From Balneolales bacterium (GTDB taxonomy: Bacteria > Bacteroidota > Rhodothermia > Balneolales > Cyclonatronaceae), in NCBI GenBank assembly GCA_020832405.1, contig JAFIET010000024.1, forward strand, positions 1-43,075: 43,075 bases of DNA, read 5' to 3'. This document shows, in pieces, positions 7,618 through 42,328 of this stretch. Position numbers and translations under genes: made by a program. The notes under the pieces are model-generated. The model had not been told where the DNA came from. It saw only the letters and a list, made by a program, of their open reading frames with translations, and did not search any database. Each line of letters begins with the position of its first letter. The first letter of the stretch is position 1.

Positions 7618-7745
7618 AGCAAAATTGAGTCTGTTTTTTATAGGTCTGTAACCGGTTCGGTCGGCCGGTACTTGTTATCTGCACTGCAGGAAGGGTTTAA
7701 CGGCATGAATAGTTCAGACTGCAAAGCTGAACGAACCCTGTTCTT

Positions 7746-7753
7746 CAAAGGTA
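7746..7753 (-). promoter_or_regulatory. Possible Bacteroidota-type -7 element for ppc
   Basis: On the minus strand the bases read TACCTTTG, an exact match to the TAnnTTTG -7 consensus described for Bacteroidota primary sigma factors. It lies ~130 bases upstream of the ppc start and after the secG terminator. A clear -33 TTG-type partner was not found, so this is tentative. Confidence 0.25.
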
Positions 7754-7822
7754 AGGAGCGAATATACACTTTTCAGGCCGCTATTGAGGGTGCTCCGAAA
7801 GCGCTTGCGGACTGTTAAAATG

Positions 7823-7855
7823 AAAAAAGCCTTCATTCCGCAGAATGAAGGCTTT
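7823..7855 (-). terminator. Terminator of secG
   Basis: A 12-bp perfect stem (7826-7837 with 7844-7855) has a 6-nt loop. On the minus strand it is followed by an uninterrupted T run (complement of 7823-7828). It starts 18 bases after the secG stop. Confidence 0.88.
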
Positions 7856-7873
7856 AAAGAAAGCATAAAAAAG

Positions 7874-8254
7874 CTATTCCTGATTACCGTTGTTTTCAGC
7901 CGGCGCCGGTGCAGGAGCGGGTGCAGGTAATGTTTCCTGCGGAAGCTGCAGGTTTGGCGGAGCAGGCTGCTCAAAGCCGGTGCTGCGCTGAATCACACTG
8001 CCTTCCTGCGGACCTTTGTCGATCAGGAAGTTGGCGAGCAGGCACAGAACCAAAAAGGTACCGCCTAAAATAGAAGTTGACTTCGACAGGAAGTCGGCCG
8101 TGCGGCGGGCTCCCACCATATTGCCGGCACCACCGCCAACGTTACCGGCCATTCCGCCGGAAAGTCCGCCACCCTGACCGCTTTGCAGCAGGATAACAAT
8201 AATCAGGACGACACAGATGATGGCAATCAGAACGATTGTAATAGAATAGAGCAT
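7874..8254 (-). CDS. secG: Preprotein translocase subunit SecG
   Basis: A 126-residue protein with two transmembrane segments (about 3-24 and 60-82) around a Gly-rich loop, and the SecG signature LLQSGQGGGLSG ... FLSKSTSILGGTF. SecG is the small accessory subunit of the SecYEG channel. The C-terminal tail after the second membrane segment is longer than in E. coli and rich in Pro and Ala (PAPAPAPAPAE), which is a low-complexity extension without known role. It is divergent from the MmcQ/YjbR gene; the 185-base gap at 8255-8439 should hold both promoters. It is followed by a strong terminator. Confidence 0.93.
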   Translation of the reverse strand: MLYSITIVLIAIICVVLIIVILLQSGQGGGLSGGMAGNVGGGAGNMVGARRTADFLSKSTSILGGTFLVLCLLANFLIDKGPQEGSVIQRSTGFEQPAPPNLQLPQETLPAPAPAPAPAENNGNQE

Positions 8255-8439
8255 AATCAGTATGGAACAACGGGTGAAGTTGGAGTGTAGCTTGGAAAAA
8301 TACGTATAAGCGCTTTCTGTATCAACATCTGATTATCCTCTTATTTTCACCGGACTTTATCTTACTGCAGGCCGGAAATCTTTAAGTATCTTTCAAAAAA
8401 AGTCTTTCCCATTAACTGCCAAAACAGAGGTGTTCACCG

Positions 8440-8799
8440 ATGGATATTGCCCGATTCCGGGATTTTTGCCTTGCTTTCCCTCATGCGGAAGAATCGCTGC
8501 CTTTCGATGAAAATGCCCTCGTATTTAAGGTGATGGGCAAAATCTTCGCCATAACCGATATTGAAAAATGGGATATGGTTATCGTAAAGTGCGACCCGGC
8601 TGAGGCCGTTGAGCTGCGCGAAACCTATGATTTTGTGCAGCCCGGATACCACATGAGCAAAAAACACTGGAACAGCATCATGATTGTGCCGGAGCTGCCC
8701 GATCCCCTGCTCAGAAAATGGGTGCAGGACAGCTACGATCTCGTGGTCGCTTCCCTCCCGGCCAAAACCCGCAGGCTGATGCAGCAGGGTAACGAATGA
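8440..8799 (+). CDS. MmcQ/YjbR-family protein
   Basis: A 119-residue cytoplasmic protein. It begins MDIARFRDFCLAFPHAEESLPF, the typical N-terminal helix and Glu-rich turn of the MmcQ/YjbR (CyaY-like fold) family, followed by FKVMGKIFAI, a VIVKCDP strand, and the conserved Pro-Gly-Tyr-His-Met-x-Lys-x-His-Trp-Asn segment (PGYHMSKKHWNS). E. coli YjbR has a DNA-binding-type double-wing fold, but the cellular role of the family is not settled. It is a single gene, convergent with mutS2, with only 48 bases between the two stops. Confidence 0.88.
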   Translation: MDIARFRDFCLAFPHAEESLPFDENALVFKVMGKIFAITDIEKWDMVIVKCDPAEAVELRETYDFVQPGYHMSKKHWNSIMIVPELPDPLLRKWVQDSYDLVVASLPAKTRRLMQQGNE

Positions 8800-12152: not shown

Positions 12153-15100
12153 ATGAATAACTTTCACTATAATTTGAAAGGCACAGCTGGTGTATTCGCA
12201 TTTCTTTTGCTGTTAATGTGCTTATTTCCGGTGGCGGCCTCTGCGCAGTCATCAGGTGTAAGTCTAACCGCACAGCAGGAAAGAAATACGTTTATTATCA
12301 ATAATGCCGGCATACAAACGGCAGACAGACAGGCGATTGTGAATCGCTTTACCGAGGCAGAGATCCGGTTTTTGGGTCGGATCGCTCCGGACATTTTCTC
12401 AACATTTGATGTGGCCTCACTTGAGGTAATTTTAGCAGCAGAAAGCCGTGAGCTGGTAAATCCTTCTTTTGCACAACAGCAAATTTTGGATGAATATCAT
12501 GCATTCAGGGCGTCGCAGATGGCTAACCGTGTTCAGAATCCCATTCTGCTTGAGTTCAATCCGGATCTTGATGAAGTGTTGTCAGTTTCCGCATTTTCGG
12601 TTGTCAGCGCTCCAAACGGCGGCTCACCTGTCGTTTTTGAAGTTGAAGCTGGAGTTGAAACCTCCGGTATGGCCGTAGGCTTTACTTTTGAAGGTACGGT
12701 AGCCGGTATCACAGATAATGGCACCTGGGCTTCAGATCTTTTAATGGTTATCGAAAGCCCATCTGGCGAAACCTATCAGCTTGGTGGTTTCGGTGGTGAC
12801 AGTAACCCCTGGGGTTTCGATGGTGGTGGTTCTACCAATGATGGTACCTACATCAGCACCCATGTTGGCGACGATATTTTTGGCGAGGGCGGAACTATGG
12901 ATGCCGGAACCTGGATCATAACGTTTTCACATGGTTGGAACAGTGTGGCAGCAGCGCAAATGGACTGGACTGACGTATCCGTTACTCTTCATAAAGAAGG
13001 CGGTGCCGGCGGAGCTGATAACTTCGTATTCGAAATTCCTGAAGTGCCTTTCGCAGGCGGTGAATTCGAAGCCATTGATGAAATGTTCACCGGCGAATTG
13101 TTTGGTTTATTGCCAGACTTTTTCCCGGTTGATATGCAGGGTTTTACTTGGACCAATGACTTCGCCCTTCTGTTTGTTGATGGTGACCTGGAGACCGGTG
13201 AGCGCGTGCTGCAGGTTGGCGGTACCACAAACTTAGGAGCTGCTGCGCGGATAAACTGGACAGGCGGTGGCAATGCCGTAGATCCTGTGATTACGCCAGT
13301 AGAATTTGCCAATCCTCTGGTAATGGACGGTCTTACTGTTTTCTACGGAAATGGCTGGACACCCTCACCTGGTGGTACATGGGGCGGAACTATTGAGTTC
13401 GTGTTTGAAGCTGACGAGCCCGAGCCGATTCCCGGTGAAATTATTTGGGAGCAGACGGTATCAGCTACTAATGGTATCGTATCCGGCTTTTTTGCTGGTG
13501 AAGGAAGCGGAACCGGAGCTTACAGCGCGGATGACTTCTCTTTCGATGCAGAATCGGAAATTACAGTACTTTCTGTAGAAGGTTTCTATGGCCAGGGCTT
13601 TACCCCTGCCGGTATTACAAGCACAGGCTGGTTTATTTTCCCTGATGCAGATGGCGTACCTGCCGGAAATCCTGAAACATCTCCTGAAGCTGCTGTGTGG
13701 TCATATATTGCCGCACAAGGTGACGAAGCTCTGGTTATTTCTCCCGGCGGCAGGATAAGCCTGAATGTATTCCAAACCGGACAGGACCTGATTCTTCCTC
13801 CTGGTAAATACTGGCTTGCATTCCATACCTCTCAGGCAGGCGCGGTATCTAATGCACGCTGGAACTGGTATGCCGGAGCTCCTGTACAGCTTGACATTGC
13901 CAAACTTATTACCCCGGGTACTGCATTTGGCGGGGCATTCCCGGCATGGACAAATCTGACAGGTGTAGACCCTGTATTCGCCGGTCTTGCATTCTCCATC
14001 ACGGGTTTCCTTGGTGAGCCTGTAGACCCTGTAGATCCTATTGAAGGTGAAATCATCATCAACGGCACTTTCGATAATGGTCTTAACAGCTGGACACCCT
14101 ATGTTGCTGATTTTGCCGGCGTAAACGCTGATTTCAGTGTTGTTGACGGTGAAGCTGCTATCACAAACATGACCGGGCCAACAAATGAAGTTTGGTTTGT
14201 ACAGCTCAATCAGGTCTTCACCCAGGAGCAGATTGCTGAGCTTGAAGTTGGTGAAACTTATGTTGCCAGTTTCGATGCCCGCTCTGCTGTGGATGGTCGT
14301 CAGCTTCGGTTCTACTTTGGTGAAGATGGCGGTGGTTTTGTTCCAGTTAACATCACCGATTTCAACCTGACCACAAGTATGGAAACATACCAGGTCACTT
14401 TTGAACTGACAAACACCTTTGGTGCCATGAAGCTCGGCTTCGAAATGGGTCTGAGCAATGCTGATGTTTTCCTTGACAACGTGTCTCTCATGCTGGCTCC
14501 GGAATCTGACACCGATCCGATTGCAGGTGTGAGCCCTGATTCAATCGAATTCGATCTTGGCATCGGTGAATCAGCTACTTCAGTTCTGGAAGTACTTAAC
14601 CTGGCCGGAATGGGCGCTGATGACCTCGAATTCAGCATCGCTGTCGAAAATGCAGCTGCCCGTAACTACTCAAGCGGTGTGCGCACACAGTTTGCTACCG
14701 TTCAGGGTGCTGACCGTGCCTCCGGCGCAGTAACACCTGCCGGTACTATTGATGCAGTTGTAGCACATAATGCCGCGCTGATGGCCATCGATGAATTCAG
14801 CGAAGGCTTTGCTGATATCGAAACCCTTCCTGCTGACGGCTGGTCGCTGCAAAACCTAAGCACACCGGTGGGTACAACTACCTGGTTCCAGGGAAATCCA
14901 GCGGTCTTTCCTGCGTTCAGCGGTGAAGAAACACATTACATTGGTGCCAACTTTAACAGCACAACTGGCAGCAACACTATCAATACATGGCTGCTAACCC
15001 CGGAAGTTACCCTGCAGAACGGAACTGAACTTCGTTTCTACACCCGTTCCACCGGTGGCAATTTCCCGGATCGCCTTGAAGTTCGCCTCAGCACAGCCGG

Positions 15101-18100
15101 CGGCAGTACCAATGCCGGTACAGACCCTGCCAGCACAGGTGATTTCACAACCCTCATGTTAACAGTTAATCCGGATCTTGTAACTGGGCCAAATGGTTAT
15201 CCTGATGAGTGGACTGAATTTGTGGCTACGGTAGAAGGTTTGGATGCTGCCACAACAGGTCGCTTCGGCTTACGCTACTTTGTTACAAGCGGCGGACCTG
15301 CCGGCGACAATTCAGATTACATCGGTATTGATGAAGTTCGTGTTGTACAGCCCGAAAACGGTGAAACGCCGGAACCGCTGGTAGTTGACCCGACAAGCGG
15401 CAGTGTTTCTGCCGGTGGTTCTGCCATGGTTAACGTAACGGCAAACACACAGGGCCTCATGGTTGGCTCCTATGGCTACAACCTGCTCATCACCACCAAC
15501 GACCCCGCTAACGGCCTTATCACCTTTCCGGTAACCGTTGATGTTAATGATGACAGCTTTGCTCAGGTACAGGTTATTCACAACGCAGCAGATCCTGCAC
15601 TCGCAGAAGTTGATGTATATGTGAATGGCGGTCTGTTTGCTACGAACTTCCCGTTCCGCGGCGCAACCGAATACCTCACTGTTCCGGCCAATGTTGAGCT
15701 TACCCTCGAAATTATGGCACCGGGCGGAAGTGAAGCCCTGCTTTCACTCTCCGTAGTTCCTGAAGCTGATGAAAGCTATGCTGTTATTGCACAGGGTGTG
15801 GCTGATCCTGACGGATTTGCACCAAACCCGGATGGTCTCGAAATCGGTGCTGAGCTTGTTGTTCTGACGGATCGTCAGGCTACCGGCGGCGGCGATACCT
15901 TCGATTTCTATGTGTTCCACGGTGCTACGGATGCTCCTGCTGTTGACGTTTTCGTACGTGAACTCGGTACAAACATTCTGACAGGCGTACCTTATGGTAC
16001 CGGTTCCGGCTACTTTAGTGTAGATCCGGGTGTGTATGTGATTGAAATCAGACCGGCCGGTTCAACAACGCCGGTTGCTGCATTCATCGCAGATGTAACC
16101 GGATTCGGCGGCCTTTCCGCAGGTATTCTTGCTTCAGGTTTCCTCAACCCTGATCAGGGTGAAGCCTTCGGCCTGCTCGTAGCGCTGGAAACCGGCGATA
16201 CCGCATTCATACCCGGTACAACAGGTCCTTCTCTGCTCATTACACCGTCTGCCCTTGCCTTTGGCGAAGTTGCAGAAGGTTTCTTCGCAGAGCAGATGGT
16301 GACCTTCACCAATGCAGGTACCTCTAACCTCATAATTTTTGATGCTACCACCGATAACGATGCGTTCAGTGTTGATTTCGGCGATGTAGAAATCGTTTCT
16401 CCGGGCGGAACCAGAACTTTCACGGTTACTTTCTCTCCTGATGTAGCCGGAGAGTACAGTGGTGATCTCCTCGTTGAAACAAATGACCCGGCAGGTGTGA
16501 AAACAGCCGCGCTTACGGGTACAGGCGTATTTGGTGCGAGCGTTGTCTTCGATCCGTCTGAGATCGTAGCTGAACTTGCTGCCAATACTTCTGACACCTT
16601 TGAGCTTACCATTACCAATGAAGGTAACGGCGCGCTTGAGTTCGCTTTCCCTGATTATATCATGGAGCGCATCCTTGACGGTACCGACACCCGCTTTGAT
16701 GCTGTTCGCCAGCGCATGATGGTGCAGGTTCGTTCTGCTTTCGAAAACACCGAAGAGCAAATGAATGCAAACCTGCAGCGCTTTATGATGAATGAAGCCG
16801 GTATCAGCGGTGAATCATCAGAAAGATCAGCTTCTGCACAGTCCAGCGAGTCTGCAGATCTGAACAGCGACGGATTCCTTATTGAGTTCGAATCCGCAAC
16901 CTTTAGCGGCGGGCAGTTCCTTACAGTAGCTGATGGTCTGAATGGCGAGCTTACTGCCGTTAATCCAAACTTTGTGATGGATGTTGTAGGCGGCGGTACC
17001 TGGACAAGCGACTTTGCGGTACTCTTTACTACTGAGCCCCTTGAAACAGGTGCAGTAATTGATCCCTCTACGGTCGTATTCCAGGCAGGTGGTCTAACCC
17101 TTTACGGGCCCGCAGGTACTCGTGTAGCATGGGCCGAAGGCCAGAATGGAACGATTGGTATTCCTATTACTACACCGATCGCACCTCCGGCACCGTTTGA
17201 TATGTCGGGTCTTTATGTTTCGATTGGTCATGGCTGGTCGCCAGGCCCTGCAACTACATGGTCTGGTTCGATTGAGCTGGTTGGCGTATCAGCCGGTGCT
17301 GACTTTATCACAGAAGTAGTACCTGCTTTCGGTGTAGTAGCTCCTGGTGATTCAGAAACCATTACACTTACGCTTGATGCTGCCGGCCTTATCGGTGGTG
17401 TTTACACAGGTGTTCTTGGTGTACTCACCAACGACCCGGCAAACCCTGAAGTAGCTATCCCAGCCACGCTTACTGTATTTGGTGAACCGATTGCAGATGT
17501 AGATCCGGCTGAACTTGACTTTGGTTCTGTATTCGTTGGTAACTCTGTTACTGACGGCGTATTGTTAACCAATACAGGTTCAGATGTTCTTCTTGTATCT
17601 GGCTTTTCTACCGACAGTGAAGAGTTTGTGGTAAGCTCGCAGGAATTAGAACTTGAAGCGGGTGAGAGTGTTGTCATTAACATCTCTTTCGCGCCTGAAT
17701 CAGACGGTAATAAGTCTGCAATGCTTACCATTGAAAGCAACGCTTCTAATGGTGATGTTACTGTTGCACTTTCTGGAGTGGGCTCAAATGCTGGTATTTT
17801 AAGCTTTGACCCGAGCTCTTTCTCCGTGACTGTTGAGCAAGGTGCAACAAGTACAGCTACGCTTCTGCTCACCAACGAGGGAGAATCTGATCTGGAGTTC
17901 AACATTGGTACTTCCAATACCGTAGCTCCGACTTCCGGACGCAGCATTCTGGTGAGGAACGAGCGCTCCGCTCAGGCTATTGACCAAGTTTCATCATTGT
18001 CAAACAGTATGAGAATAAGTGGAAGCAATGCAACTCTGCAATCGGCTGCGCCTGGCTGGCATGCAGTTCGCCAAACCATGCCTTCTGTTCTGAATAGCGA

Positions 18101-19553
18101 AACCGAAATCATTTGGAATCAGCAGAACAATGGTACTGGCGGTGGTGTGTCTGACTTCTTCCAGCCATTGGGAAGCGGAGCTTACTCTGCTGATGACTTC
18201 CTCCTCGAGGAAGGAGCAAATCTCCAGGTCATTACAGCTTATGGATTTGTTGGCCCGGCCGATGGTGTACCCATTACCACGGGTGCAAATGGTGTCGGAA
18301 TATTCATTTATCCTGACAACAATGGCCTTCCAGCCGGACACCCGCAGGATGGACAAAACAGCCATGTGTTCTCCTTCACAGGTGGCTTTAATTCTGCCGG
18401 CCTCACCATCATTGAAGAGGCTGCAGGGGCTATTTTCACCGATATAGTTTTGGATATTGAAGCAGCGACAGGTTCAGCTCTAAACTTGCCAGCCGGTACC
18501 TACTGGATAATGGTATTTGTTGACACTAATGGTCAGCTTGGCGGGCCAGCTCGCTGGAACTGGTCTCAGGGTGAGCCAAATCTCAACAGTGGTCAGCTTA
18601 TTGATCCGGGTGGGTTGTTTGGAGCCAATACCAACTGGCAGTCATGGGCAGGTATTACAAATGGCGACTGGAGCGACCTTGCCTTTATGATTGAAGGAAA
18701 CTTCGGTTCTTTTGTTGATACCGATCCTGCACAGGGTGTAATTGCACCCGGTGGCTCAGTTGAAGTTGTAGTCACTTTTGATGCAACAGATCTGGAGCCT
18801 GGTGACTATTTCGCCAACATCAACATCACAACCAATTCCCCGATTACACCGTCAGCAACCATTCCCGTGGCTATGACTGTTGAAGAGGGAGCAGGTCAGC
18901 CCTCTGAACTCGTTACCTTCCAGGTTGATATGAGCGTTCAGAGTTCACTCGGTAACTTCAACCCGGGTGTTGGTGATGAAGTGTTCGTTCGCGGTAGTTT
19001 CAATGACTGGTCTGTAATTACAGGCGAGGAAATGACCGACAGCGGCGAAATGGTGTACACCTACACCGTAGAACTCTTCGGTGAAGCCGGTACCCTTTAT
19101 GAGTACAAGTACTTCATCCTTGCCGGCGACGGCCGTGAACTGCCTAACGGTGGTTGGGAATTTGATTCAGTAGGTGAGGGTGGAAGCACCAACCGCCAGG
19201 TATTCCTGACTGGTGATGACCAAACCCTGCCTGTTGTATTCTTCAACAACCAGGACGCTGTAAATGTTGAGCCTGAGTTTGACATGCCGACCGAGTTCGC
19301 TCTCAAGCAGAACTACCCGAACCCGTTCAACCCCACAACCAACATCGTTTATGCTCTGCCGGAAGCTTCTGAGGTAACCCTCGAAGTATTCAACCTGCAG
19401 GGTCAGCGTGTGGCGGTTCTGGTGCGCGGTCAGCAAACAGCCGGTTTCCATACCGTAAACTTCGATGCGTCCCGCCTTGCTTCAGGTATGTACCTGTACC
19501 GTCTGCAGGCTGGTAACTTCGTACAAACACAGAAAATGATGCTTGTGAAGTAA
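12153..19553 (+). CDS. Giant multidomain T9SS-secreted surface protein (2466 aa)
   Basis: A signal peptide (MNNFHYNL...PVAASAQ) is followed by a mosaic of extracellular beta domains. Rough positions: helical N-region 32-155; P-domain/jelly-roll-like modules 158-284, 290-422 and again 1574-1716; a ~190-residue module beginning E-I-I-W at 429-620 and repeated at 1985-2184; a CBM4/9-like lectin fold 632-785; choice-of-anchor J-like 881-1065; a DUF4397-type pair 1135-1351; choice-of-anchor D/ASH-type Ig modules ~1360-1460 and 1782-1880, with shorter pieces at 792-835, 1073-1132, 1463-1513, 1719-1780, 1881-1920 and 2185-2246; a CBM20/48-like domain (FVRGSFNDW) ~2252-2375; T9SS type A sorting domain 2387-2466 with NYPNPFNPTTNI and a final basic K. 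No catalytic domain was recognised. It is probably a surface-bound or released adhesin or polymer-binding protein. Its own terminator follows. Confidence 0.88.
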   Translation: MNNFHYNLKGTAGVFAFLLLLMCLFPVAASAQSSGVSLTAQQERNTFIINNAGIQTADRQAIVNRFTEAEIRFLGRIAPDIFSTFDVASLEVILAAESRELVNPSFAQQQILDEYHAFRASQMANRVQNPILLEFNPDLDEVLSVSAFSVVSAPNGGSPVVFEVEAGVETSGMAVGFTFEGTVAGITDNGTWASDLLMVIESPSGETYQLGGFGGDSNPWGFDGGGSTNDGTYISTHVGDDIFGEGGTMDAGTWIITFSHGWNSVAAAQMDWTDVSVTLHKEGGAGGADNFVFEIPEVPFAGGEFEAIDEMFTGELFGLLPDFFPVDMQGFTWTNDFALLFVDGDLETGERVLQVGGTTNLGAAARINWTGGGNAVDPVITPVEFANPLVMDGLTVFYGNGWTPSPGGTWGGTIEFVFEADEPEPIPGEIIWEQTVSATNGIVSGFFAGEGSGTGAYSADDFSFDAESEITVLSVEGFYGQGFTPAGITSTGWFIFPDADGVPAGNPETSPEAAVWSYIAAQGDEALVISPGGRISLNVFQTGQDLILPPGKYWLAFHTSQAGAVSNARWNWYAGAPVQLDIAKLITPGTAFGGAFPAWTNLTGVDPVFAGLAFSITGFLGEPVDPVDPIEGEIIINGTFDNGLNSWTPYVADFAGVNADFSVVDGEAAITNMTGPTNEVWFVQLNQVFTQEQIAELEVGETYVASFDARSAVDGRQLRFYFGEDGGGFVPVNITDFNLTTSMETYQVTFELTNTFGAMKLGFEMGLSNADVFLDNVSLMLAPESDTDPIAGVSPDSIEFDLGIGESATSVLEVLNLAGMGADDLEFSIAVENAAARNYSSGVRTQFATVQGADRASGAVTPAGTIDAVVAHNAALMAIDEFSEGFADIETLPADGWSLQNLSTPVGTTTWFQGNPAVFPAFSGEETHYIGANFNSTTGSNTINTWLLTPEVTLQNGTELRFYTRSTGGNFPDRLEVRLSTAGGSTNAGTDPASTGDFTTLMLTVNPDLVTGPNGYPDEWTEFVATVEGLDAATTGRFGLRYFVTSGGPAGDNSDYIGIDEVRVVQPENGETPEPLVVDPTSGSVSAGGSAMVNVTANTQGLMVGSYGYNLLITTNDPANGLITFPVTVDVNDDSFAQVQVIHNAADPALAEVDVYVNGGLFATNFPFRGATEYLTVPANVELTLEIMAPGGSEALLSLSVVPEADESYAVIAQGVADPDGFAPNPDGLEIGAELVVLTDRQATGGGDTFDFYVFHGATDAPAVDVFVRELGTNILTGVPYGTGSGYFSVDPGVYVIEIRPAGSTTPVAAFIADVTGFGGLSAGILASGFLNPDQGEAFGLLVALETGDTAFIPGTTGPSLLITPSALAFGEVAEGFFAEQMVTFTNAGTSNLIIFDATTDNDAFSVDFGDVEIVSPGGTRTFTVTFSPDVAGEYSGDLLVETNDPAGVKTAALTGTGVFGASVVFDPSEIVAELAANTSDTFELTITNEGNGALEFAFPDYIMERILDGTDTRFDAVRQRMMVQVRSAFENTEEQMNANLQRFMMNEAGISGESSERSASAQSSESADLNSDGFLIEFESATFSGGQFLTVADGLNGELTAVNPNFVMDVVGGGTWTSDFAVLFTTEPLETGAVIDPSTVVFQAGGLTLYGPAGTRVAWAEGQNGTIGIPITTPIAPPAPFDMSGLYVSIGHGWSPGPATTWSGSIELVGVSAGADFITEVVPAFGVVAPGDSETITLTLDAAGLIGGVYTGVLGVLTNDPANPEVAIPATLTVFGEPIADVDPAELDFGSVFVGNSVTDGVLLTNTGSDVLLVSGFSTDSEEFVVSSQELELEAGESVVINISFAPESDGNKSAMLTIESNASNGDVTVALSGVGSNAGILSFDPSSFSVTVEQGATSTATLLLTNEGESDLEFNIGTSNTVAPTSGRSILVRNERSAQAIDQVSSLSNSMRISGSNATLQSAAPGWHAVRQTMPSVLNSETEIIWNQQNNGTGGGVSDFFQPLGSGAYSADDFLLEEGANLQVITAYGFVGPADGVPITTGANGVGIFIYPDNNGLPAGHPQDGQNSHVFSFTGGFNSAGLTIIEEAAGAIFTDIVLDIEAATGSALNLPAGTYWIMVFVDTNGQLGGPARWNWSQGEPNLNSGQLIDPGGLFGANTNWQSWAGITNGDWSDLAFMIEGNFGSFVDTDPAQGVIAPGGSVEVVVTFDATDLEPGDYFANINITTNSPITPSATIPVAMTVEEGAGQPSELVTFQVDMSVQSSLGNFNPGVGDEVFVRGSFNDWSVITGEEMTDSGEMVYTYTVELFGEAGTLYEYKYFILAGDGRELPNGGWEFDSVGEGGSTNRQVFLTGDDQTLPVVFFNNQDAVNVEPEFDMPTEFALKQNYPNPFNPTTNIVYALPEASEVTLEVFNLQGQRVAVLVRGQQTAGFHTVNFDASRLASGMYLYRLQAGNFVQTQKMMLVK

Positions 19554-19787: not shown

Positions 19788-22265
19788 ATGAAATCTGCTT
19801 TACGATCTGCTACAGCCCTTTTTCTGTTCACTTTTAGTATGGCTTTCTATACGGGCGCGAATGCACAGTTCACAACGCCCAATCAGAACCTCACCCTCAC
19901 CTTGTCTGATCTTGTCGAAATTTCCGGCGGTGCTGTTACGGAAGATGAAAACGGGTTTTTGATTAATGCCGAAATTACTATAGCCGAAACCGACCGCCTT
20001 CACATTTTGGAGCCGGCCGAAGTACGGGTAGCGCAGGCTGTCCGAATCGTGGTTCAGGGCGGCTTCCGGGCTGAACCTGCTTTCGGCACCGTAACCTTTA
20101 CTGCTGCCGATACAAGCAGCACAGCCGCGAACTTCCGTGGGTTTCGTTTTGAAGATGCAGATCCGGCTGTATTCCGGAACATTACGGTAAAGTATGGGGG
20201 CGGCATTCAGCTGATAGGCACCCCGGCCGTTTTTGAAGACTGCGTGATGCGAAACAACGGCTTCTCAAACGTCACGGCGGCCATCACCTACAGCGGATCA
20301 AGTCCGGTTATTAACCGATGCGATTTTATTGATAATGTCCGCTCAGCTATCGGTTCCGGCGCAAATGTTACCGGTGCCCCGCAAATCACCAACAGCCGCT
20401 TCCTGCGGAACGTGACCGATAACACCAACCGCCCGCAAATCAACCTCGGTCCGGGCATCGCCGGTGATACCCTCCGAATTGAAAACAATATCATCGAAGG
20501 CTTCAACAACAACTCCGGCGGTATCGGCCTGAGCAACCTGCTCGGCGGAGGCGTAACCGTTGCATCGATCCGTAATAACGTGATCACCGGCAACCGCTTT
20601 GGCATCACGCAAATCGGAAACAATATCTCAACGGTGATTGAGGGCAACATCATCTCCGATAACAACATCCAAAACAACCCCATGCTGGGTGGCAGCGGGC
20701 TCAACTTCCTGGCTATGGAGCCCACCAACACCTCGCGCGTGCGCCGGAACATCATCTCCGGCAACCTTTGGGGCGTAACAACGCAGCTGGGCAGTGCGCA
20801 GGCCGTGCAGGGTCCGCAGCCTGATTTTGGCACGGCCGAAGATCCTGGCGGCAACGTCTTTTTCGGTAACGGAAATAACAATGCGCTTTTTGCCCTCTAC
20901 AACAATACGATGATGGAGCTCACCGCCATCGGAAACTACTGGGGCGACAACAGTGCGGAATTCGCAGAGAGCGTCATCTTTCATCAGCCGGACGATGCCT
21001 CGCTGGGTCTTGTGGTTTTTGAGCCCATCCTGGAGCTGCAGCCAGAATTCGGATTCTTCGCCTTTTTTGCCCATGACAACCCCGGCTTAACTGAAGACGT
21101 GATCGCCGAAATTGATCCGGAGACCGCTACCATAACCGCGGTGCTGCCGATTGGCACAAGCCTAAGCGCGCTCATCCCGAGCGTTGCCGTGCCGCTCGGC
21201 GTTGAAGGTGCACCTGAAGCCGGTCAGAGTTTCAATTTTTCTGAACCGGTCAGCTTCACGCTGAGTACCCCGCATGGCGAAGAGCAAAGCTGGACGGCCG
21301 ACATCACAACCGCTTCCGCAACCGTTTTCCTGCAGTTTGCCCATTTCTCGGCCGACCCGGCACTGGAAACCGTGGCCCTATTTGTAGATGATGAACTTAT
21401 TGAAGAAAACTTCAGCTATCAGACTGCCACGGATTATTTTGAGTTTAACGCCGCATCAACTGAAATTACAATTGAGCTTAGGGAGGGTGAATCTATACTT
21501 TTTTCAGAATCCCTGCCGCTTGAACAGTTTGGTTTTGATGGCACCATTGTTTTCACGGGTGTAGCTGATCCTGATGCATTTGATCCAAACCCCGACGGCA
21601 CTGATATTTCGCTTCGGGCGGTCGTTTTTCGGAGAGACATCATCCCTGTGAACGAGTATTGGGCAGAGTACAGAATCCTGCACGCGGTAACCAATGCCCC
21701 GGCGGTGAGCCTGGTTGCGCAACCCGGCGACCTGACTCTGGGTTTCGCAGCTTATGCCGAAGAAGCAGAATTTTCAATACCAATTTTTGAGGAATTGGAG
21801 GCAGATTTACTCGAGTTGCGCACCGCAGACGGAGAAACCAGCATTGCTGTTTACAATCTGATCACGGAAGAGCTGCCCGCCAACTTCTTTTTTGTAATAT
21901 CCGGTTTTGCAGATAACCCCGAACTTGGCATACTCGATGCCGAAACCGGAACTTTTACCCCGCTCATGCGGGCAACGAACCTGCCCGGCATAGAGCAACC
22001 GCACACTTTCACACTTGAGCAAAACTATCCGAACCCGTTCAACCCGGCTACAAATATCCGCTTCAGTTTGGCTGAAAGCGGCGATGCTGTGCTCACGGTA
22101 TATAACATTCAGGGGCAGCTGGTAGCGACGCTTGTTAACGGCAGCCTGCCTGCCGGGCAGCACACCGTAAGGTTTGACGCCTCTGCCCTCGCAAGCGGAC
22201 TCTACCTCACACGGCTCCGGGCGGGAAATGAAACACAGTTAATTAAGATGATGCTTGTAAAATAA
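19788..22265 (+). CDS. T9SS-secreted beta-helix protein with DUF4397-like module (825 aa)
   Basis: Signal peptide MKSALRSATALFLFT...ANAQF. Residues ~114-384 are a right-handed parallel beta-helix: repeated short strands with Asn ladders such as IENNIIEGFNNNSGGIGLSN, RNNVITGN and RNIISGN, ending in NYWGDNS. The fold is common in polysaccharide lyases and adhesins, but catalytic residues cannot be assigned. Residues ~430-510 (TATITAVLPIGTSLSALIP...) resemble the Ig-like DUF5018 group. Residues ~515-735 are a DUF4397-type pair (QFAHFSADPALETV; VADPDAFDPNPDG; LHAVTNAPAV). A T9SS type A sorting domain (NYPNPFNPATNIRFS) fills 746-825. It is monocistronic, with a 234-base gap and terminator before it and its own terminator after. 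Confidence 0.86.
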   Translation: MKSALRSATALFLFTFSMAFYTGANAQFTTPNQNLTLTLSDLVEISGGAVTEDENGFLINAEITIAETDRLHILEPAEVRVAQAVRIVVQGGFRAEPAFGTVTFTAADTSSTAANFRGFRFEDADPAVFRNITVKYGGGIQLIGTPAVFEDCVMRNNGFSNVTAAITYSGSSPVINRCDFIDNVRSAIGSGANVTGAPQITNSRFLRNVTDNTNRPQINLGPGIAGDTLRIENNIIEGFNNNSGGIGLSNLLGGGVTVASIRNNVITGNRFGITQIGNNISTVIEGNIISDNNIQNNPMLGGSGLNFLAMEPTNTSRVRRNIISGNLWGVTTQLGSAQAVQGPQPDFGTAEDPGGNVFFGNGNNNALFALYNNTMMELTAIGNYWGDNSAEFAESVIFHQPDDASLGLVVFEPILELQPEFGFFAFFAHDNPGLTEDVIAEIDPETATITAVLPIGTSLSALIPSVAVPLGVEGAPEAGQSFNFSEPVSFTLSTPHGEEQSWTADITTASATVFLQFAHFSADPALETVALFVDDELIEENFSYQTATDYFEFNAASTEITIELREGESILFSESLPLEQFGFDGTIVFTGVADPDAFDPNPDGTDISLRAVVFRRDIIPVNEYWAEYRILHAVTNAPAVSLVAQPGDLTLGFAAYAEEAEFSIPIFEELEADLLELRTADGETSIAVYNLITEELPANFFFVISGFADNPELGILDAETGTFTPLMRATNLPGIEQPHTFTLEQNYPNPFNPATNIRFSLAESGDAVLTVYNIQGQLVATLVNGSLPAGQHTVRFDASALASGLYLTRLRAGNETQLIKMMLVK

Positions 22266-22415: not shown

Positions 22416-25391
22416 ATGATGACACATAAAATTGGTACCGTATGCATAGGGCTCATAATAGTGGCTGCGCTTTTCTTACTCAGCACACCTTTGCTGCACG
22501 CGCAGCAGCCTGCTGAAACACAGGTTTTTCATCCTGAAACCGGCGAACCCGTTCCGGCCTTCCGGGGAGATGCCTCCCTGCTCCAAAACTGGCTCGAAAC
22601 ATCTGAGCAGCAGGCTCAGCTGCAAAACGAAAACGGCCTTGAGCTGTCTTCATTTATTCCCGGCGGCACAAGCCGTACAGGGTTTATTGCCGGCGACTTC
22701 GCCTATTTTGGCGACGGCCCCTCCTTTGTTGCAGTCGATCTCACAAACCCACAGTCGCCCGTTGCACGGGGTAACTTCGCTTTCCCGGGGCTGATCAGCG
22801 AGATTGTGGTGGAAGGCGACCTTGCCTTCGTTGCCGTCAGAAATCCCGGCGGCGGACTCTTCATTCTCGATATCTCCGATAAAGACAATCCGCAGCTCAC
22901 CGGCTCATTTACCCCTCGTGCCGGATTTACGGTAGAAGCTTTAGGAAATCAAGCCTTTATAGGCCATGGCACACAGGGGTTTACCCGTGTTGATGTATCA
23001 AACCCTCAAGCACCGGAAGTAATCCAATATATTACAGCCGGTGGTTCAGCCAACGGAATGGCGGTGGATGAAAACTTCCTCTATGTTGCTTTTGGCGCAC
23101 CGGGTTTCCGGATATACGACATCACTTCAACGGAGGAAACACCCCTGCTTTCCACAACGGATGTCGGCGGGTTCGTAAACAACCTCGCCATTGTGGGCGA
23201 TGTCCTTTATGTATCGTCGGCTGCCGGCTTTTTGATTTATGATGTAAGCGACCGTACTGCCCCGGTTCAGCTCGGTGCCTATACTGCTGCCGGAGGAGTA
23301 TTTGGGGCAAGCGTGGTGGATGGCTTCGCCTACCTATCGGGTTCTTTTGGTCTGCGCATCCTCGATGTATCGAACCCGGCTTCCGTTTCGGTAGTGAGCG
23401 CTTCAACCCCTAATGTGCAGTCATCGCTTGATACCTTTTCTGACGGTAACCTCGCCGTGGTTTCAAGCCGCTTTTTCGGGCTTAACGTGGTGGATGTAAG
23501 CACGCCCTCAGCGCCGGTGCTCAACGGGCTGGTTGATAACCTCGGCTTTGCGTACAAAGTAGCGCTTGAAAACGGAATACTGTATGTGATGGACATCGCC
23601 GGCAAGCTCACCATTTTTGATGCCGCCAATCCGTTAGCCCCCGTTTTCCTTTCCCGGATTTTTACCACGCAGAATTCCGAAAACATCTCGGTTTCCGACG
23701 GCCTGGTTTACATTGTGGATTCAGATGGAGGCTCGGGCCGCATCACCCTCATAGATGCCCGCAACCCTGCCGCGCCGCAGATTCTGGAAGTGATCCCCAC
23801 CTCGTCCCAAAGCTTCGGCGTTGACGTAACCGCCGACCGTGCCTACACGGCTTCCGGTTTTGGCGGGCTGCGCGTGTACACCCGCGATGCCGAAAGCGGC
23901 GCGGTTTCGCTCATTTCAACCCTGCCGACCGGCAACAACGCCTATTATGTGCGCCAAAAAGACGACCTTGCGTTGATTGCCAATTTTGGCGCCGGCCTTT
24001 TCGTAGCCGATATTTCGGATGAAGAAAACCCCGTTCAGGCTTCTGCCGTAGTAACGGGTCAGCTCGTGCAGTCGCTCGATTTCAGACCCGGTGAGCCTTT
24101 TGCCGTGCTGGCCGACGGCAACAACGGCCTGACCGTTGTGAACCTCACGGACCCGACCGCGCCTGTAAACGAAGGCAGTTTCTCTGTTGCCAACAACGGC
24201 CGCGATGTGCGCATACAGCAGGATTTTGTGTACGCCGCCGCTGAATTTTTCGGCGTACGGCAGTTTGAGGGCAGCAACCTCACAAGCCTCACCGAAATTG
24301 CGTCGTTTTCAACGATAGATCGTGTTACCGGTTTATCGGTGGAAGGCGGCCTACTTGCCGCTGCCGGTGCCGAAGGCGGCCTGTACCTGTTCTCGATTCC
24401 TTTTTCGGATGCGCCCGGCCCTGATCCTGATCCGGCATTTGTGCAGCTGATTCACTCCGCCGCCGATCCCGCCGCCGCGCTCGTCGATATTTTTGTGAAT
24501 GATGCCCTCGTGGAATCTGCCTTCCCCTTTGGTGCGGCCATTCCGGTATCTCCGGCACCATCAAGCGAACTGCAGCAGCTGCGCATCAAGCTTGCCGGCA
24601 CCGACACCGTGATTCTCGAAGATACGTTTGAGTTCGAAGCCAACCGCACCTACAGCATCACGGTAACAGGCGTGGCCAACCCCGCTGACTTCGCCCAGAA
24701 CCCGGGCGGCGCCGATATTTCGGTGAATCTTGCGGTGTCCATTTATCCGCTGCTCGTTGGCCCGGCCGACTTGCACGCCTACCTGCTGCACACCGTAACC
24801 GACGCCCCCGCCGTAGATGTGTACGCCAACGGCACGCTCCTCATCGGCGGCCTCAGCTACGGCGAGCCCTCCCCTTTCACCGGCCTCAACGCCGAAACCG
24901 CAGCGCTCTCGCTAACCCTTGCCGGCACCGAAACAGAAGTAGCGCGCTTCACAGCCGACCTCAGTGTCTTTGAAGGAGAGTTTGTGGCCATTCAGGCCCG
25001 CGGCTTCCTCAACCCCGCCGAAAATCAGGATGGTGCGGCCTTTGAGCTTGTTGCGGTGCGTCCAAGCGGCGAAGTAGTGGTGTTCGATGCCGTTCCGGTA
25101 TCCGTATTGCCGGAAACCCAGCTGCCCGCTGAGCTTTCGCTGTCCCAGAACTACCCGAACCCGTTCAACCCCGCAACCAGCATCCGGTTCAGCCTGCCCC
25201 AACAGCAGGATGTACGCCTTGAGGTCTTCAACATGCAGGGGCAGCGCGTAGCAGTGCTCGCCTCCGGCCGTTTCGCGGCAGGCACGCACACCGTCCGCTT
25301 CGACGCCTCTGCCCTCGCCTCCGGCCTCTACCTCTACCGCCTCAGCACCCCCGACGCATCCCTCACCCGCAAAATGATGCTGCTGAAATAA
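22416..25391 (+). CDS. T9SS-secreted LVIVD-repeat beta-propeller protein with DUF4397-like module (991 aa)
   Basis: Signal peptide MMTHKIGTVCIGLIIVAALF...LLHAQQ. Residues ~75-660 carry about a dozen ~42-residue LVIVD-type repeats, each with a strand such as LFILDISDKDNPQLTGSF, FLIYDVSDRTAPVQLG or LNVVDVSTPSAPVLNG, which fold as beta-propeller blades in related proteins. Residues ~674-895 are a DUF4397-type pair (QLIHSAADPAAALVDIFVND; VANPADFAQNPGG; LHTVTDAPAVDVYANG). The T9SS type A sorting domain (NYPNPFNPATSIRFSL) spans 912-991. No catalytic motif is visible; ligand binding on the cell surface is the best guess. The G+C content rises strongly toward the 3' end of this gene compared with its 5' part. 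Confidence 0.88.
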   Translation: MMTHKIGTVCIGLIIVAALFLLSTPLLHAQQPAETQVFHPETGEPVPAFRGDASLLQNWLETSEQQAQLQNENGLELSSFIPGGTSRTGFIAGDFAYFGDGPSFVAVDLTNPQSPVARGNFAFPGLISEIVVEGDLAFVAVRNPGGGLFILDISDKDNPQLTGSFTPRAGFTVEALGNQAFIGHGTQGFTRVDVSNPQAPEVIQYITAGGSANGMAVDENFLYVAFGAPGFRIYDITSTEETPLLSTTDVGGFVNNLAIVGDVLYVSSAAGFLIYDVSDRTAPVQLGAYTAAGGVFGASVVDGFAYLSGSFGLRILDVSNPASVSVVSASTPNVQSSLDTFSDGNLAVVSSRFFGLNVVDVSTPSAPVLNGLVDNLGFAYKVALENGILYVMDIAGKLTIFDAANPLAPVFLSRIFTTQNSENISVSDGLVYIVDSDGGSGRITLIDARNPAAPQILEVIPTSSQSFGVDVTADRAYTASGFGGLRVYTRDAESGAVSLISTLPTGNNAYYVRQKDDLALIANFGAGLFVADISDEENPVQASAVVTGQLVQSLDFRPGEPFAVLADGNNGLTVVNLTDPTAPVNEGSFSVANNGRDVRIQQDFVYAAAEFFGVRQFEGSNLTSLTEIASFSTIDRVTGLSVEGGLLAAAGAEGGLYLFSIPFSDAPGPDPDPAFVQLIHSAADPAAALVDIFVNDALVESAFPFGAAIPVSPAPSSELQQLRIKLAGTDTVILEDTFEFEANRTYSITVTGVANPADFAQNPGGADISVNLAVSIYPLLVGPADLHAYLLHTVTDAPAVDVYANGTLLIGGLSYGEPSPFTGLNAETAALSLTLAGTETEVARFTADLSVFEGEFVAIQARGFLNPAENQDGAAFELVAVRPSGEVVVFDAVPVSVLPETQLPAELSLSQNYPNPFNPATSIRFSLPQQQDVRLEVFNMQGQRVAVLASGRFAAGTHTVRFDASALASGLYLYRLSTPDASLTRKMMLLK

Positions 25392-39180: not shown

Positions 39181-40149
39181 ATGGCCGACATCCGTTACGA
39201 TATAATTGGTGATATTCACGGGCACGTGCTCGAGCTGCGGCAGCTGCTCCAAACCCTCGGCTACCGCGAAGCCGGTGAGGGCTACATCCATCCTGAAAAA
39301 AAACGCAAACCCCTCTTCGTGGGCGACTACATCGACCGGGGCAGCGAAAGCGTAGAAGTGCTCGACCTGGTGATGGGCATGGAGCAGGCCGGTGAGGCTG
39401 TAGCGCTGATGGGCAACCACGAATTTAACGCCCTCTGCTATCATACCCCGGGTGAAGCGGGGGAGCCGCTGCGGCCGCACACGGCCAAAAACACCAAACA
39501 GCACGAAGCAACCCTCGCGGGGCTGGCGCGGCACAATACCTCCTTTTCGAAATACCGCGACTGGCTGCTCTCGCTCCCGCTGTTTTTGGAGGAAGACGGC
39601 TTCCGAGCCGTGCATGCCTGCTGGGATGAAACCCGAATTGCGTTTCTGCGCGACCGGATGCCGGCAGCGCGCCTGAGCGACAGCCTGCTCACCGAAGCCG
39701 CAGCGCGCGGCTCTGAACTCTACGACGCGGTGGAAGTTGTGCTGAAAGGCCGCGAAATCGACCTGCCCGAAGGCCTGTTTTTTTACGACAAAGACGGGCA
39801 CATCCGCTACAACATGCGCATCCGCTGGTGGGAGAATCCGGAGGGCGCCACCTACAACGATCTGCGCGTGAAGCCCGACTGCGACTGCGGAGATGCCCCC
39901 GTAGCGCTCGATTTACTGCCCGACCGGTGGCACTACGGTTCCGCGGAAAAGCCCGTGTTTTTCGGGCACTACTGGCTGCAGGGCGATCCGGCGCTGTTCC
40001 GCGATAACGTGTGCTGCCTCGATTACAGCATCGGCAAAGGCGAAACGCTGGCCGCCTACACCTGGGATGGCAAGCCCAGGCTAAACTCCGAAAACTTCAC
40101 GGCAATACGGCACAGGATGCACGGTTGGGGGGCTATACGCAGCGTTTAA
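39181..40149 (+). CDS. Calcineurin-like metallophosphatase (PrpE/diadenosine-tetraphosphatase type)
   Basis: A 322-residue cytoplasmic protein with the full metallophosphoesterase motif set: GDIHGH (10-15), GDYIDRGSES (48-57), GNHEF (78-82), then HACWDE and FGHYWLQGDP for the later His ligands. The wording of motifs I-III is closest to the Ser/Thr phosphatase-like and symmetrical Ap4A-hydrolase group, so phosphoprotein or dinucleotide substrates are both possible. An acidic insert DCDCGD (~237-242) with two Cys is unusual. Single gene, divergent from tex (187-base gap) and convergent with the lipoprotein gene. Confidence 0.85.
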   Translation: MADIRYDIIGDIHGHVLELRQLLQTLGYREAGEGYIHPEKKRKPLFVGDYIDRGSESVEVLDLVMGMEQAGEAVALMGNHEFNALCYHTPGEAGEPLRPHTAKNTKQHEATLAGLARHNTSFSKYRDWLLSLPLFLEEDGFRAVHACWDETRIAFLRDRMPAARLSDSLLTEAAARGSELYDAVEVVLKGREIDLPEGLFFYDKDGHIRYNMRIRWWENPEGATYNDLRVKPDCDCGDAPVALDLLPDRWHYGSAEKPVFFGHYWLQGDPALFRDNVCCLDYSIGKGETLAAYTWDGKPRLNSENFTAIRHRMHGWGAIRSV

Positions 40150-40270: not shown

Positions 40271-40954
40271 TTAATGACGAACGATCTGCCAGAAACCATC
40301 GGGAACCACATATCTGAAATTTCCGGACTCGTATATATTTTTGGCGAGCGTATAGGGCGTGCCGTGCCTAAAGGCATTGTCCCTAAATAAGTACAGATCA
40401 ATTTGGGAATTTTTTGACAGAAATTCGAGGCTAAACTGAGCTGAGAGTTCAGATACCGAAAAGTCCTCTGCTGAAGGCTTTACAGAGATTAAATTGTTCG
40501 GATAATACCAGGCCTCTTTTTCGGGATCCCTTGAGTAAGCAGGCAGCGCGTAACGAATAAACGGGTTATTAGCGAAACTGTCTTCCCGAAGATTATCTGA
40601 AAAACTGTAGAACTGAGCGTTATCCGCACCGGGAGGCAGTAAAAGTATAACAGGTGACTGGCTACTCAGCTGCGAGTCAGGAATCCTGGAATAATGCTGA
40701 TGTGTGAATGCTGAGATAAGCTGAAGCCCCATATCGTTTATGTAATCATGAAAAGCATCCGCGTCGGTATCCGGTTTTAGGCCAACAGAGATTACATTGA
40801 GGCTTCGGAAGGTTTTAATCTCCTTACCATCCACAAAAAATGATTCTTCTGAAAACTCATATACCGGTTCCTCAGTGCTGCCGGTTATACCTGAGCACGA
40901 ACTGAAAATTATTGCTGTGACAAGAAATGAAGAGATGAAAACCAGTTTATTCAT
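40271..40954 (-). CDS. Lipoprotein resembling a free-standing subtilisin (S8) propeptide
   Basis: 227 residues. MNKLVFISSFLVTAIIFSSC gives a lipobox with Cys20. The middle and C-terminal part (~130-227) reads FIRYALPAYSRDPEKEAWYY, NNLISVKPSAEDFSVSELSA, then IDLYLFRD ... LAKNIYESGNFRYVVPDGFW. This follows the order seen in propeptides of secreted S8 proteases of Bacteroidota: an F(I/V)RYALP strand, (E)x-I-x-VKxKP, a helix, a Y-L-(F/L)-R strand, and A-x-x-(L/I)-x-E-S-G-x-(V/F)-x-Y-x-x-P. No catalytic Asp/His/Ser domain follows. It has the best Shine-Dalgarno in the window (GGAGGT). It could be a protease inhibitor, a chaperone for a protease elsewhere, or a leftover of a truncated gene. Family assignment is by eye only. 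Confidence 0.6.
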   Translation of the reverse strand: MNKLVFISSFLVTAIIFSSCSGITGSTEEPVYEFSEESFFVDGKEIKTFRSLNVISVGLKPDTDADAFHDYINDMGLQLISAFTHQHYSRIPDSQLSSQSPVILLLPPGADNAQFYSFSDNLREDSFANNPFIRYALPAYSRDPEKEAWYYPNNLISVKPSAEDFSVSELSAQFSLEFLSKNSQIDLYLFRDNAFRHGTPYTLAKNIYESGNFRYVVPDGFWQIVRH

Positions 40955-40960
40955 TGCAGT

Positions 40961-40966
40961 ACCTCC
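40961..40966 (-). promoter_or_regulatory. Strong ribosome binding site of the propeptide-like lipoprotein
   Basis: On the minus strand GGAGGT stands 6 bases before the ATG at 40954. Most genes in this window lack such a site, so this gene is set up for efficient start or came from elsewhere. Confidence 0.65.
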
Positions 40967-41781: not shown

Positions 41782-42129
41782 TTATTCACTTTCGATAGAC
41801 AGTACTTTCGCAAGCCCAATTCTTATTTCGTTCATAATTGTCTCTGAAACAGTCCCTATTTGCTTTAAAATTCTCTCTTGTGAAACTGACCTGACTTGAA
41901 AGCTGTCTGCCGCAGAAACCTTTGTTAATCCATTCTCTTTGTCTGGCTTAAGTTTTGTCATCCATATCGCAGTTTCGTATCTGTCTTTCCAGTCTGTAAT
42001 TGGCACAATTATTTTCAGGGGTAATTTCCCCAGTGCGTTGTTGTTCACTATTATCGCAGGTCTTGTCTTTTTAATCTCGGCACCTACGGTTGGGTCAACA
42101 TTAATTAACCAGATTTCACCTTGTTTCAT
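41782..42129 (-). CDS. MazF/PemK-type mRNA interferase toxin
   Basis: 115 residues from the ATG at 42129 (MKQGEIWLINVDPTVGAEIK, KTRPAIIVNNNALGKLPLK, IIVPITDW). These are the signature strands of the MazF/CcdB fold, with the Gly-Glu-(I/V)-W start, the K-x-R-P-A-x-(I/V)-(V/I) core and the T/S of PIT used in RNA cleavage. It closes with VSQERILKQIGTVSETIMNE, also typical. It cleaves mRNA when unneutralised. The gene overlaps the end of the antitoxin gene by 14 bases. The start 4 codons earlier (42141) is less likely. It appears intact. Confidence 0.92.
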   Translation of the reverse strand: MKQGEIWLINVDPTVGAEIKKTRPAIIVNNNALGKLPLKIIVPITDWKDRYETAIWMTKLKPDKENGLTKVSAADSFQVRSVSQERILKQIGTVSETIMNEIRIGLAKVLSIESE

Positions 42130-42328
42130 AGAAGTGGTCAAAATCGAGATTCGTAAATGCAGTTAATTCTTTGTCCCTAAGATAGTCTTCGTACAATTCT
42201 TCAGCCGCCTTTTTCATTTCGTCGTCGTCTTCTTCTTTACGGATTAAATTCATTGAACGCTCAATTACATAAATCCGCTTTCTTACAGGTAGTTTCTGTA
42301 TTTCTTTAATAAGTTCTTTGGTATCCAT
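42116..42328 (-). CDS. Antitoxin of the MazF-type module
   Basis: 70 residues, MDTKELIKEIQKLPVRKRIY, VIERSMNLIRKEEDDDEMKK, then AAEELYEDYLRDKELTAFTN and LDFDHFYETR. It has an N-terminal helical segment followed by a highly charged C-terminus with an aromatic-acidic tail that probably wraps the toxin. The sequence is not of the AbrB-type MazE; it fits the short uncharacterised antitoxins found upstream of MazF in Bacteroidota. Position (directly upstream, 14-base overlap) is the main evidence for its job. It probably autoregulates the pair from the gap at 42329 onward. Confidence 0.82.
   Translation of the reverse strand: MDTKELIKEIQKLPVRKRIYVIERSMNLIRKEEDDDEMKKAAEELYEDYLRDKELTAFTNLDFDHFYETR

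Follow-up and report, generated by a model that had tools for sequence, protein, structure and literature searches.

To our knowledge, how bacteria that export many broad proteases through the T9SS escape digestion of the envelope has been explained mainly in the case of a single oral pathogen, by its potempins. Potempins are small beta-barrels, and some of the KLIKK enzymes are S8 proteases that are exported by the T9SS. In Tannerella forsythia a potempin is a small lipoprotein whose gene directly precedes that of a secreted KLIKK protease, which it inhibits according to data that the authors had not yet published at the time (PMC7296668). Propeptides and their free-standing copies are described as potent subtilase inhibitors in a second article, which names the eukaryotic stand-alone inhibitors Pleurotus peptidase A inhibitor 1, yeast peptidase B inhibitor, Arabidopsis SPI-1, TgMIC5, and Plasmodium SUB1-ProM, the last of which inhibits SUB1 and is encoded at a locus next to subtilase genes (PMC6993865). 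In bacteria, ORF2 of Aeromonas sobria is the external chaperone of the protease ASP (PDB 3wqb); its C-terminus is located at the active site, ORF2 inhibits its protease with an IC50 of 84 nM, and a title in the reference list has it serve a propeptide-deficient protease (PMC5638518). For T9SS subtilases of Bergeyella, the propeptide is said to be unlike I9, so that a propeptide fold would not find a target in every protease of this kind (PMC11982257). Among the matches listed in a search of the open PMC literature, no title concerned a lipoprotein of Bacteroidota that consists of a stand-alone subtilase propeptide; subscription papers lie mostly outside the scope of this search.

The window, which is the whole of contig 105 of a Balneolales genome (G000) and comprises 43,075 nucleotides, carries such a gene on its minus strand (Table 1). 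A preliminary description made from the letters alone had located a real gene here, with an end at 40966 that took in the Shine-Dalgarno sequence; the open reading frame itself ends at 40954. The other features read at that time were found again: the strings FIRYALP, VKPS, YLFRD, and YESGNFRYVVP occur in the order given, the signal peptidase II site is recognizable as the lipobox IFSSC with Cys20 behind a hydrophobic signal, and when 20 likely genes of the window are compared, the Shine-Dalgarno sequence pairs most strongly here, at -10.9 kcal/mol, the runner-up having -7.3. Cys20 is invariant in 13/13 aligned stand-alone homologues, and from signal peptide and lipobox cysteine the protein is predicted to be a bacterial lipoprotein. 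The gene looks monocistronic: it adjoins a metallophosphoesterase gene on the plus strand (39181-40149, PF00149), and upstream lies a small open reading frame of at most 112 residues, which has no Pfam match when read from an inner ATG. Elsewhere in the window, three large successive open reading frames of 2466, 825, and 991 residues (12153-19553, 19788-22265, 22416-25391) each have a terminal T9SS sorting tail, and a MazF/PemK-type toxin gene (41782-42328, minus strand; PF02452, 1.4e-24) is overlapped by a small upstream gene without Pfam match that may encode an antitoxin.

Table 1. Coordinates of the lipoprotein gene and its parts in the window, and of single-domain stand-alone lipoproteins in other genomes.
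Feature	Position	Strand	Basis or remark
Stand-alone tandem S8-propeptide lipoprotein ORF, 227 aa (predicted)	40271..40954, stop codon included	minus	ATG start
Shine-Dalgarno GGAGGT	40961..40966	minus	6-base spacer to ATG
Predicted signal peptide and lipobox, Cys20 codon 40895-40897	40895..40954	minus	sequence
Predicted domain 1, residues 34-141, propeptide-like, with insertion	40532..40855	minus	AlphaFold and hhalign; fold match weak
Predicted domain 2, residues 147-221, subtilisin-propeptide fold	40292..40516	minus	AlphaFold, VIA, hhalign
C-terminal tail, residues 222-227	40274..40291	minus	pLDDT <50 from residue 223
Single-domain stand-alone lipoprotein, G001	L160:1504-1824		
Single-domain stand-alone lipoprotein, G009	L072:7974-8291		
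Single-domain stand-alone lipoprotein, G003	L159		
Single-domain stand-alone lipoprotein, G062	L161:1492-1815		
Single-domain stand-alone lipoprotein, G084	L165:1474-1842		

An AlphaFold model computed with seven family members as input (pLDDT 84.2, pTM 0.77) consists of two successive alpha/beta domains, the first of which contains an insertion that is seen in the window-type subfamily. When the whole model is compared by VIA, rows 1-9 are all taken by prodomains of S8 proteases or by ORF2, the external chaperone of Aeromonas, among them 9fie_B (Z 9.2, rmsd 2.6, 76 aligned), 3wqb_B (ORF2; Z 8.7, rmsd 2.6, 94 aligned), which ranks third, and 2z56_B (Z 7.3, rmsd 2.3, 64 aligned). This uninterrupted run of prodomains at the top outweighs the Z values themselves, because best values of 7-8 are usual without true kinship and a Z of 9 is only modestly higher. 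Foldseek returned no PDB match to the whole model at E <= 0.001; its ranking by E-value is led by RRM (RNA-binding) and ACT-type double domains, and its highest probabilities, up to 1.00, belong to prodomains. Predicted alone, domain 1 (pLDDT 90.8) again draws mostly these structures: nine of the ten first VIA rows are ORF2 or S8 prodomains, with 3wqb_B placed best, at Z values of 4.9-5.3 that are weak. The predicted fold thus agrees with the ferredoxin-like propeptide fold on which the earlier proposal had staked itself, for domain 1 alone weakly (best Z 5.3).

Single-sequence searches with the window protein found little: Pfam gave no family at E <= 10, NCBIfam nothing convincing (BamM and BamK matched weakly, from residue 1), and the PDB sequences no match. 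Profile searches of PDB sequences with an alignment of 13 stand-alone proteins (A6) and one of 19 two-domain propeptides of Bacteroidota subtilases (A5) gave chance-level matches only. Between these two alignments, hhalign finds a relationship over 173 columns that covers both domains (probability 99.2, E 2.3e-19), which is stronger for domain 2 (98.8, E 9e-17) than for domain 1 (89, E 2e-6), and inside the family the two domains match each other with a probability of only 18. An HMM built from 17 S8 propeptides, with the linked proteases left out, scores the window protein at 41.6 bits (E 3e-11 for 5,000 sequences); 2,600 shuffled family members reach 9.1 bits at most, and unrelated neighbouring open reading frames 9.6. 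All but one of the 13 stand-alone proteins outscore every shuffle, the exception being L072 with 6.8 bits. A profile search had been proposed against S8 propeptides and I9-type inhibitors; Pfam Inhibitor_I9 (PF05922) matches none of the 13 members at E <= 1. The Fervidolysin_NPro-like family (PF22148) leaves the window protein unmatched and reaches one of the 13 members at E 0.057; the second domain of the L044 protease propeptide passes its cut-off (28.1 bits against 21), which ties the propeptide group to a named family. The family profile also finds the N-terminal regions of larger open reading frames that continue into a subtilase domain, and on this profile evidence the stand-alone lipoprotein is homologous to the propeptides that precede catalytic domains.

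By Pfam, the window protein contains no catalytic Asp-His-Ser domain, and the contig has no PF00082 match. As had been claimed, the protein halts where a catalytic domain would start, 9 residues past Pro218, and protease propeptides with short linkers have about 10-13 residues between the equivalent of Pro218 and the mature part when read by eye, a few others, e.g. L048 and L054, having much longer linkers. Model and sequence profiles agree that the protein is a tandem of S8-propeptide-type domains with no enzyme, a tandem build that had earlier been missed. Seven to ten residues follow the Pro-218 column in 11/13 members, and the 77-residue propeptide of BPN' has 7 past the same column if its Asp71 is matched to Asp219. 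Asp71 is the second helix-capping residue of BPN' according to PMC6993865, and this position is Asp or Asn in 9/13 members; the first capping residue, Glu69, is kept in none of the 13. Several members end in I/V-x-R-(H/W/F), and 9/13 have a hydrophobic residue at the fourth position from the end (binomial P 0.02, for a position picked after seeing the data). By analogy, the window protein would end about where the P1 residue of a propeptide lies, and its tail may have a corresponding role.

Homologues are not always full-length proteases, an outcome on which the preliminary description had made its proposal depend: we count 14 stand-alone genes across 12 genomes. They are found in 10/128 Balneolales genomes, four more of which have only S8 matches, and in 2/164 genomes of the order to which G215 belongs. 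In the genus of the window genome, 3/6 genomes have a member, the window's being alone of its subtype. In the tree, the 13 aligned stand-alone proteins form one clade against the 19 S8 propeptides (support 98/97). Tree and alignment leave out the second G009 copy (L124), which ends early and has one TGA read through, and include the G004 copy without a start codon, as there is none where other members start. Matches in G602, G649, G062, and G513 were excluded from the member count, as were many family-profile matches above E 0.001, which span little beyond the signal peptide. A scan of genome contigs with the window protein returned no relative, and one with the Gracilimonas copy returned the strain itself only.

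The two-domain S8 propeptides of Bacteroidota are the nearest relatives in build: the same two domains occur in the same order over the homologous columns, but the stand-alone family differs from them in its lipobox, in the lack of a catalytic domain, in its separate clade, and, for the window type, in the insertion in domain 1. With the eukaryotic stand-alone inhibitors it shares the free-standing propeptide fold and not the kind of host; we know of none of these inhibitors that is lipid-anchored or tandem. Like potempin genes, the member in G055 encodes a small lipoprotein directly before the gene of a T9SS-tailed protease, and those in G007 and G022 adjoin a protease gene, but the candidate inhibitor has a propeptide fold (tandem alpha/beta in the model) instead of a beta-barrel, and the window copy, unlike potempin genes, adjoins no protease gene. 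The G055 pair is that of Gracilimonas amylolytica LA399, where the stand-alone gene lies directly upstream of an S8 protease gene (PF00082 1.1e-49), with 18 bp to the first possible start, and the protease carries a T9SS tail (Por_Secre_tail, 2.2e-9). The gene is likewise directly upstream of a subtilase on G007 contig 196 (PF00082 3.9e-47) and in G022, where the protease, identified by eye, is cut off by the contig end after its first 60 residues. On G009 contig 279 it lies two genes upstream of a subtilase (L087, PF00082 5.5e-51) that does not match the two-domain propeptide profile, and another lipoprotein gene stands between them. The linked protease frame in G007 (L123:6208-7819) has an in-frame TAA just after the signal peptide; this may be a decaying gene or a sequence error, and the G007 pair may be decaying.

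The linked genomes span three families, and in the tree the G055, G007, and G022 copies cluster into a single subgroup, so that they are not independent and count as one event at most. Proteases of bearer genomes were found via PF00082 in a search that left out G022 and G598, and catalytic motifs were read by eye, with a Pfam check for L076, L160, and L164. Among the 52 S8 rows in nine bearer genomes, 30 were read, and only two of these have a two-domain propeptide, namely the linked proteases of G055 (L083) and G007 (L091). Window-type copies show no S8 linkage on their contigs, three of which are only 14-19 kb long, and in G015 an S8 gene lies about 32 kb from the copy; the window-type loci that were read share no neighbours. 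A common second gene beside every copy was considered and rejected, as the next genes differ. In G009 the neighbour is weakly propeptide-like (E 0.01), in G007 it is an unclassified lipoprotein with no match, and in G215 a small lipoprotein (L077:5937-6371) that passes the Pfam cut-off for BsuPI, a proteinase inhibitor (35.7 against 22.9), as happens in one of the 12 bearer genomes. The neighbours in G004 (L073:6759-7798) and G598 (L152:1561-2049) are lipoproteins with no significant Pfam match.

The gene that follows the first G009 copy led to a second class, the single-domain stand-alone propeptide-like lipoproteins (Table 1). The one in G062 passes the Pfam cut-off for the Fervidolysin prodomain (29.6 against 21) and the one in G084 that for Inhibitor_I9 (36.0 against 21.2), and the one in G001, from the genus of the window genome, follows a T9SS-tailed S8 protease after a gap of 10 bp. 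A G005 subtilase reads RNQVTLRGSIPNDPLF where two stand-alone copies end, one with NNVTLR at the stop and the other with GNVTLR one residue before it, which suggests that single-domain genes stop near the inferred propeptide/mature junction. Beside the G062 gene lies another small lipoprotein (L161:826-1320) that nearly passes the cut-off for Big_14 (26.1 against 27). Other, related-looking lipoproteins stand beside two-domain S8 proteases in G457 (L126:4408-5328 and 7704-8582) and G038 (L127:3029-3613), where no stand-alone propeptide was found; these are possible further candidates for guarding proteases.

Taken together, a lipid-anchored inhibitor of the propeptide type that shields the envelope from exported subtilases is, in our judgement, the best explanation and a reasonably probable one. 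Domain 2 would dock on the surface helices of a subtilase, the free C-terminal tail would occupy the substrate cleft in the manner of a bound product, and the lipid would keep the inhibitor at the envelope, presumably in the outer membrane. There it would stop T9SS-exported subtilases from digesting the envelope; these would be produced by the cell itself or, in the case of the unlinked window copy, possibly by others. Such a membrane-tethered propeptide probably is a built-in safety lock. The linkage to S8 genes in related genomes lends the reading of a membrane-held inhibitor circumstantial support. The window genome has ten S8 open reading frames, none of them on the window contig, and for eight of them a T9SS sorting tail lies on the same contig and in the same open frame, which provides a motive for a tethered inhibitor. 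Against such an inhibitor count the loss of Glu69, the unlinked position of the window copy, and the finding that none of the ten S8 frames has a two-domain propeptide, the best being L032 with one domain at E 0.07. Proteases of the S8 family with a matching propeptide, for which a survey had been suggested, were found in other Bacteroidota and not in the window genome, in which a dedicated partner protease was sought and not found. We are less confident in naming the protease that the window copy meets than in the tethered inhibitor itself.

The linked proteases of G055 and G007 have propeptides of their own, so that the extra gene could do something else. A possible alternative is that the propeptide fold has been repurposed to bind a partner that is not a protease, as a scaffold or receptor lipoprotein. 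The absence of shared neighbours at window-type loci, the loss of Glu69 in every member, the insertion in domain 1, and the patchy occurrence within the Balneolales would all fit, but in the sister subgroup there is linkage to S8 protease genes and the length of the tail is kept in 11 of the 13 members, and we consider this reading unlikely. Quite improbable, too, is a trans-acting folding helper of an S8 protease, comparable to ORF2 for ASP, whose inhibition would be transient. ORF2 is a bacterial stand-alone propeptide-like protein among the top three fold matches of the window protein and the first for domain 1, and its gene neighbours that of its protease, for which it also is an inhibitor (PMC5638518). 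However, ORF2 aligned as one domain, is encoded downstream, and is not called a lipoprotein in that source; its partner is propeptide-deficient as far as this source goes, but the linked G055 and G007 subtilases carry two-domain propeptides, and all ten S8 frames of the window genome have an N-terminal region ahead of the catalytic domain. A lipid anchor would, moreover, be odd for a helper of a protein due for export. That the genes are debris of a broken S8 protease gene is rejected for the family as highly implausible, because the aligned members form one clade apart from protease-borne propeptides, the frames are open over 218-248 residues in each of 12 genomes (in G004 without a start at the usual place), changes are 1.5-2.6 times as frequent at codon position 3 as at position 2 in six pairs, the lipobox cysteine is invariant, the Shine-Dalgarno sequence is strong, and the contig has no S8 match, although copies do decay, as seen in the early end of the second G009 copy and in a fourth genome of the window's genus (G001 contig 219), where the profile match contains two in-frame stops.

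Returning to the lipid-anchored inhibitor, natural propeptide inhibitors may serve protease production, and Gracilimonas amylolytica LA399 is a named strain that has candidate inhibitor and protease as adjacent genes. The single-domain copies that stop near the propeptide/mature junction hint at how a propeptide may have become a free inhibitor within bacteria. More tentatively, and with somewhat more doubt than trust, we suggest that Balneolales and related Bacteroidota turned subtilase propeptides into lipid-anchored immunity proteins, perhaps repeatedly, in a tandem, a single-domain Fervidolysin-type, and a single-domain Pfam-I9-type form; several of these are co-encoded with exported subtilases and would act as a tethered off switch, and unlinked copies could offer protection from enzymes that neighbours release or that are encoded elsewhere. 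If true, a propeptide-derived, lipid-anchored class would be a second answer to the problem of envelope self-protection, in environmental bacteria.
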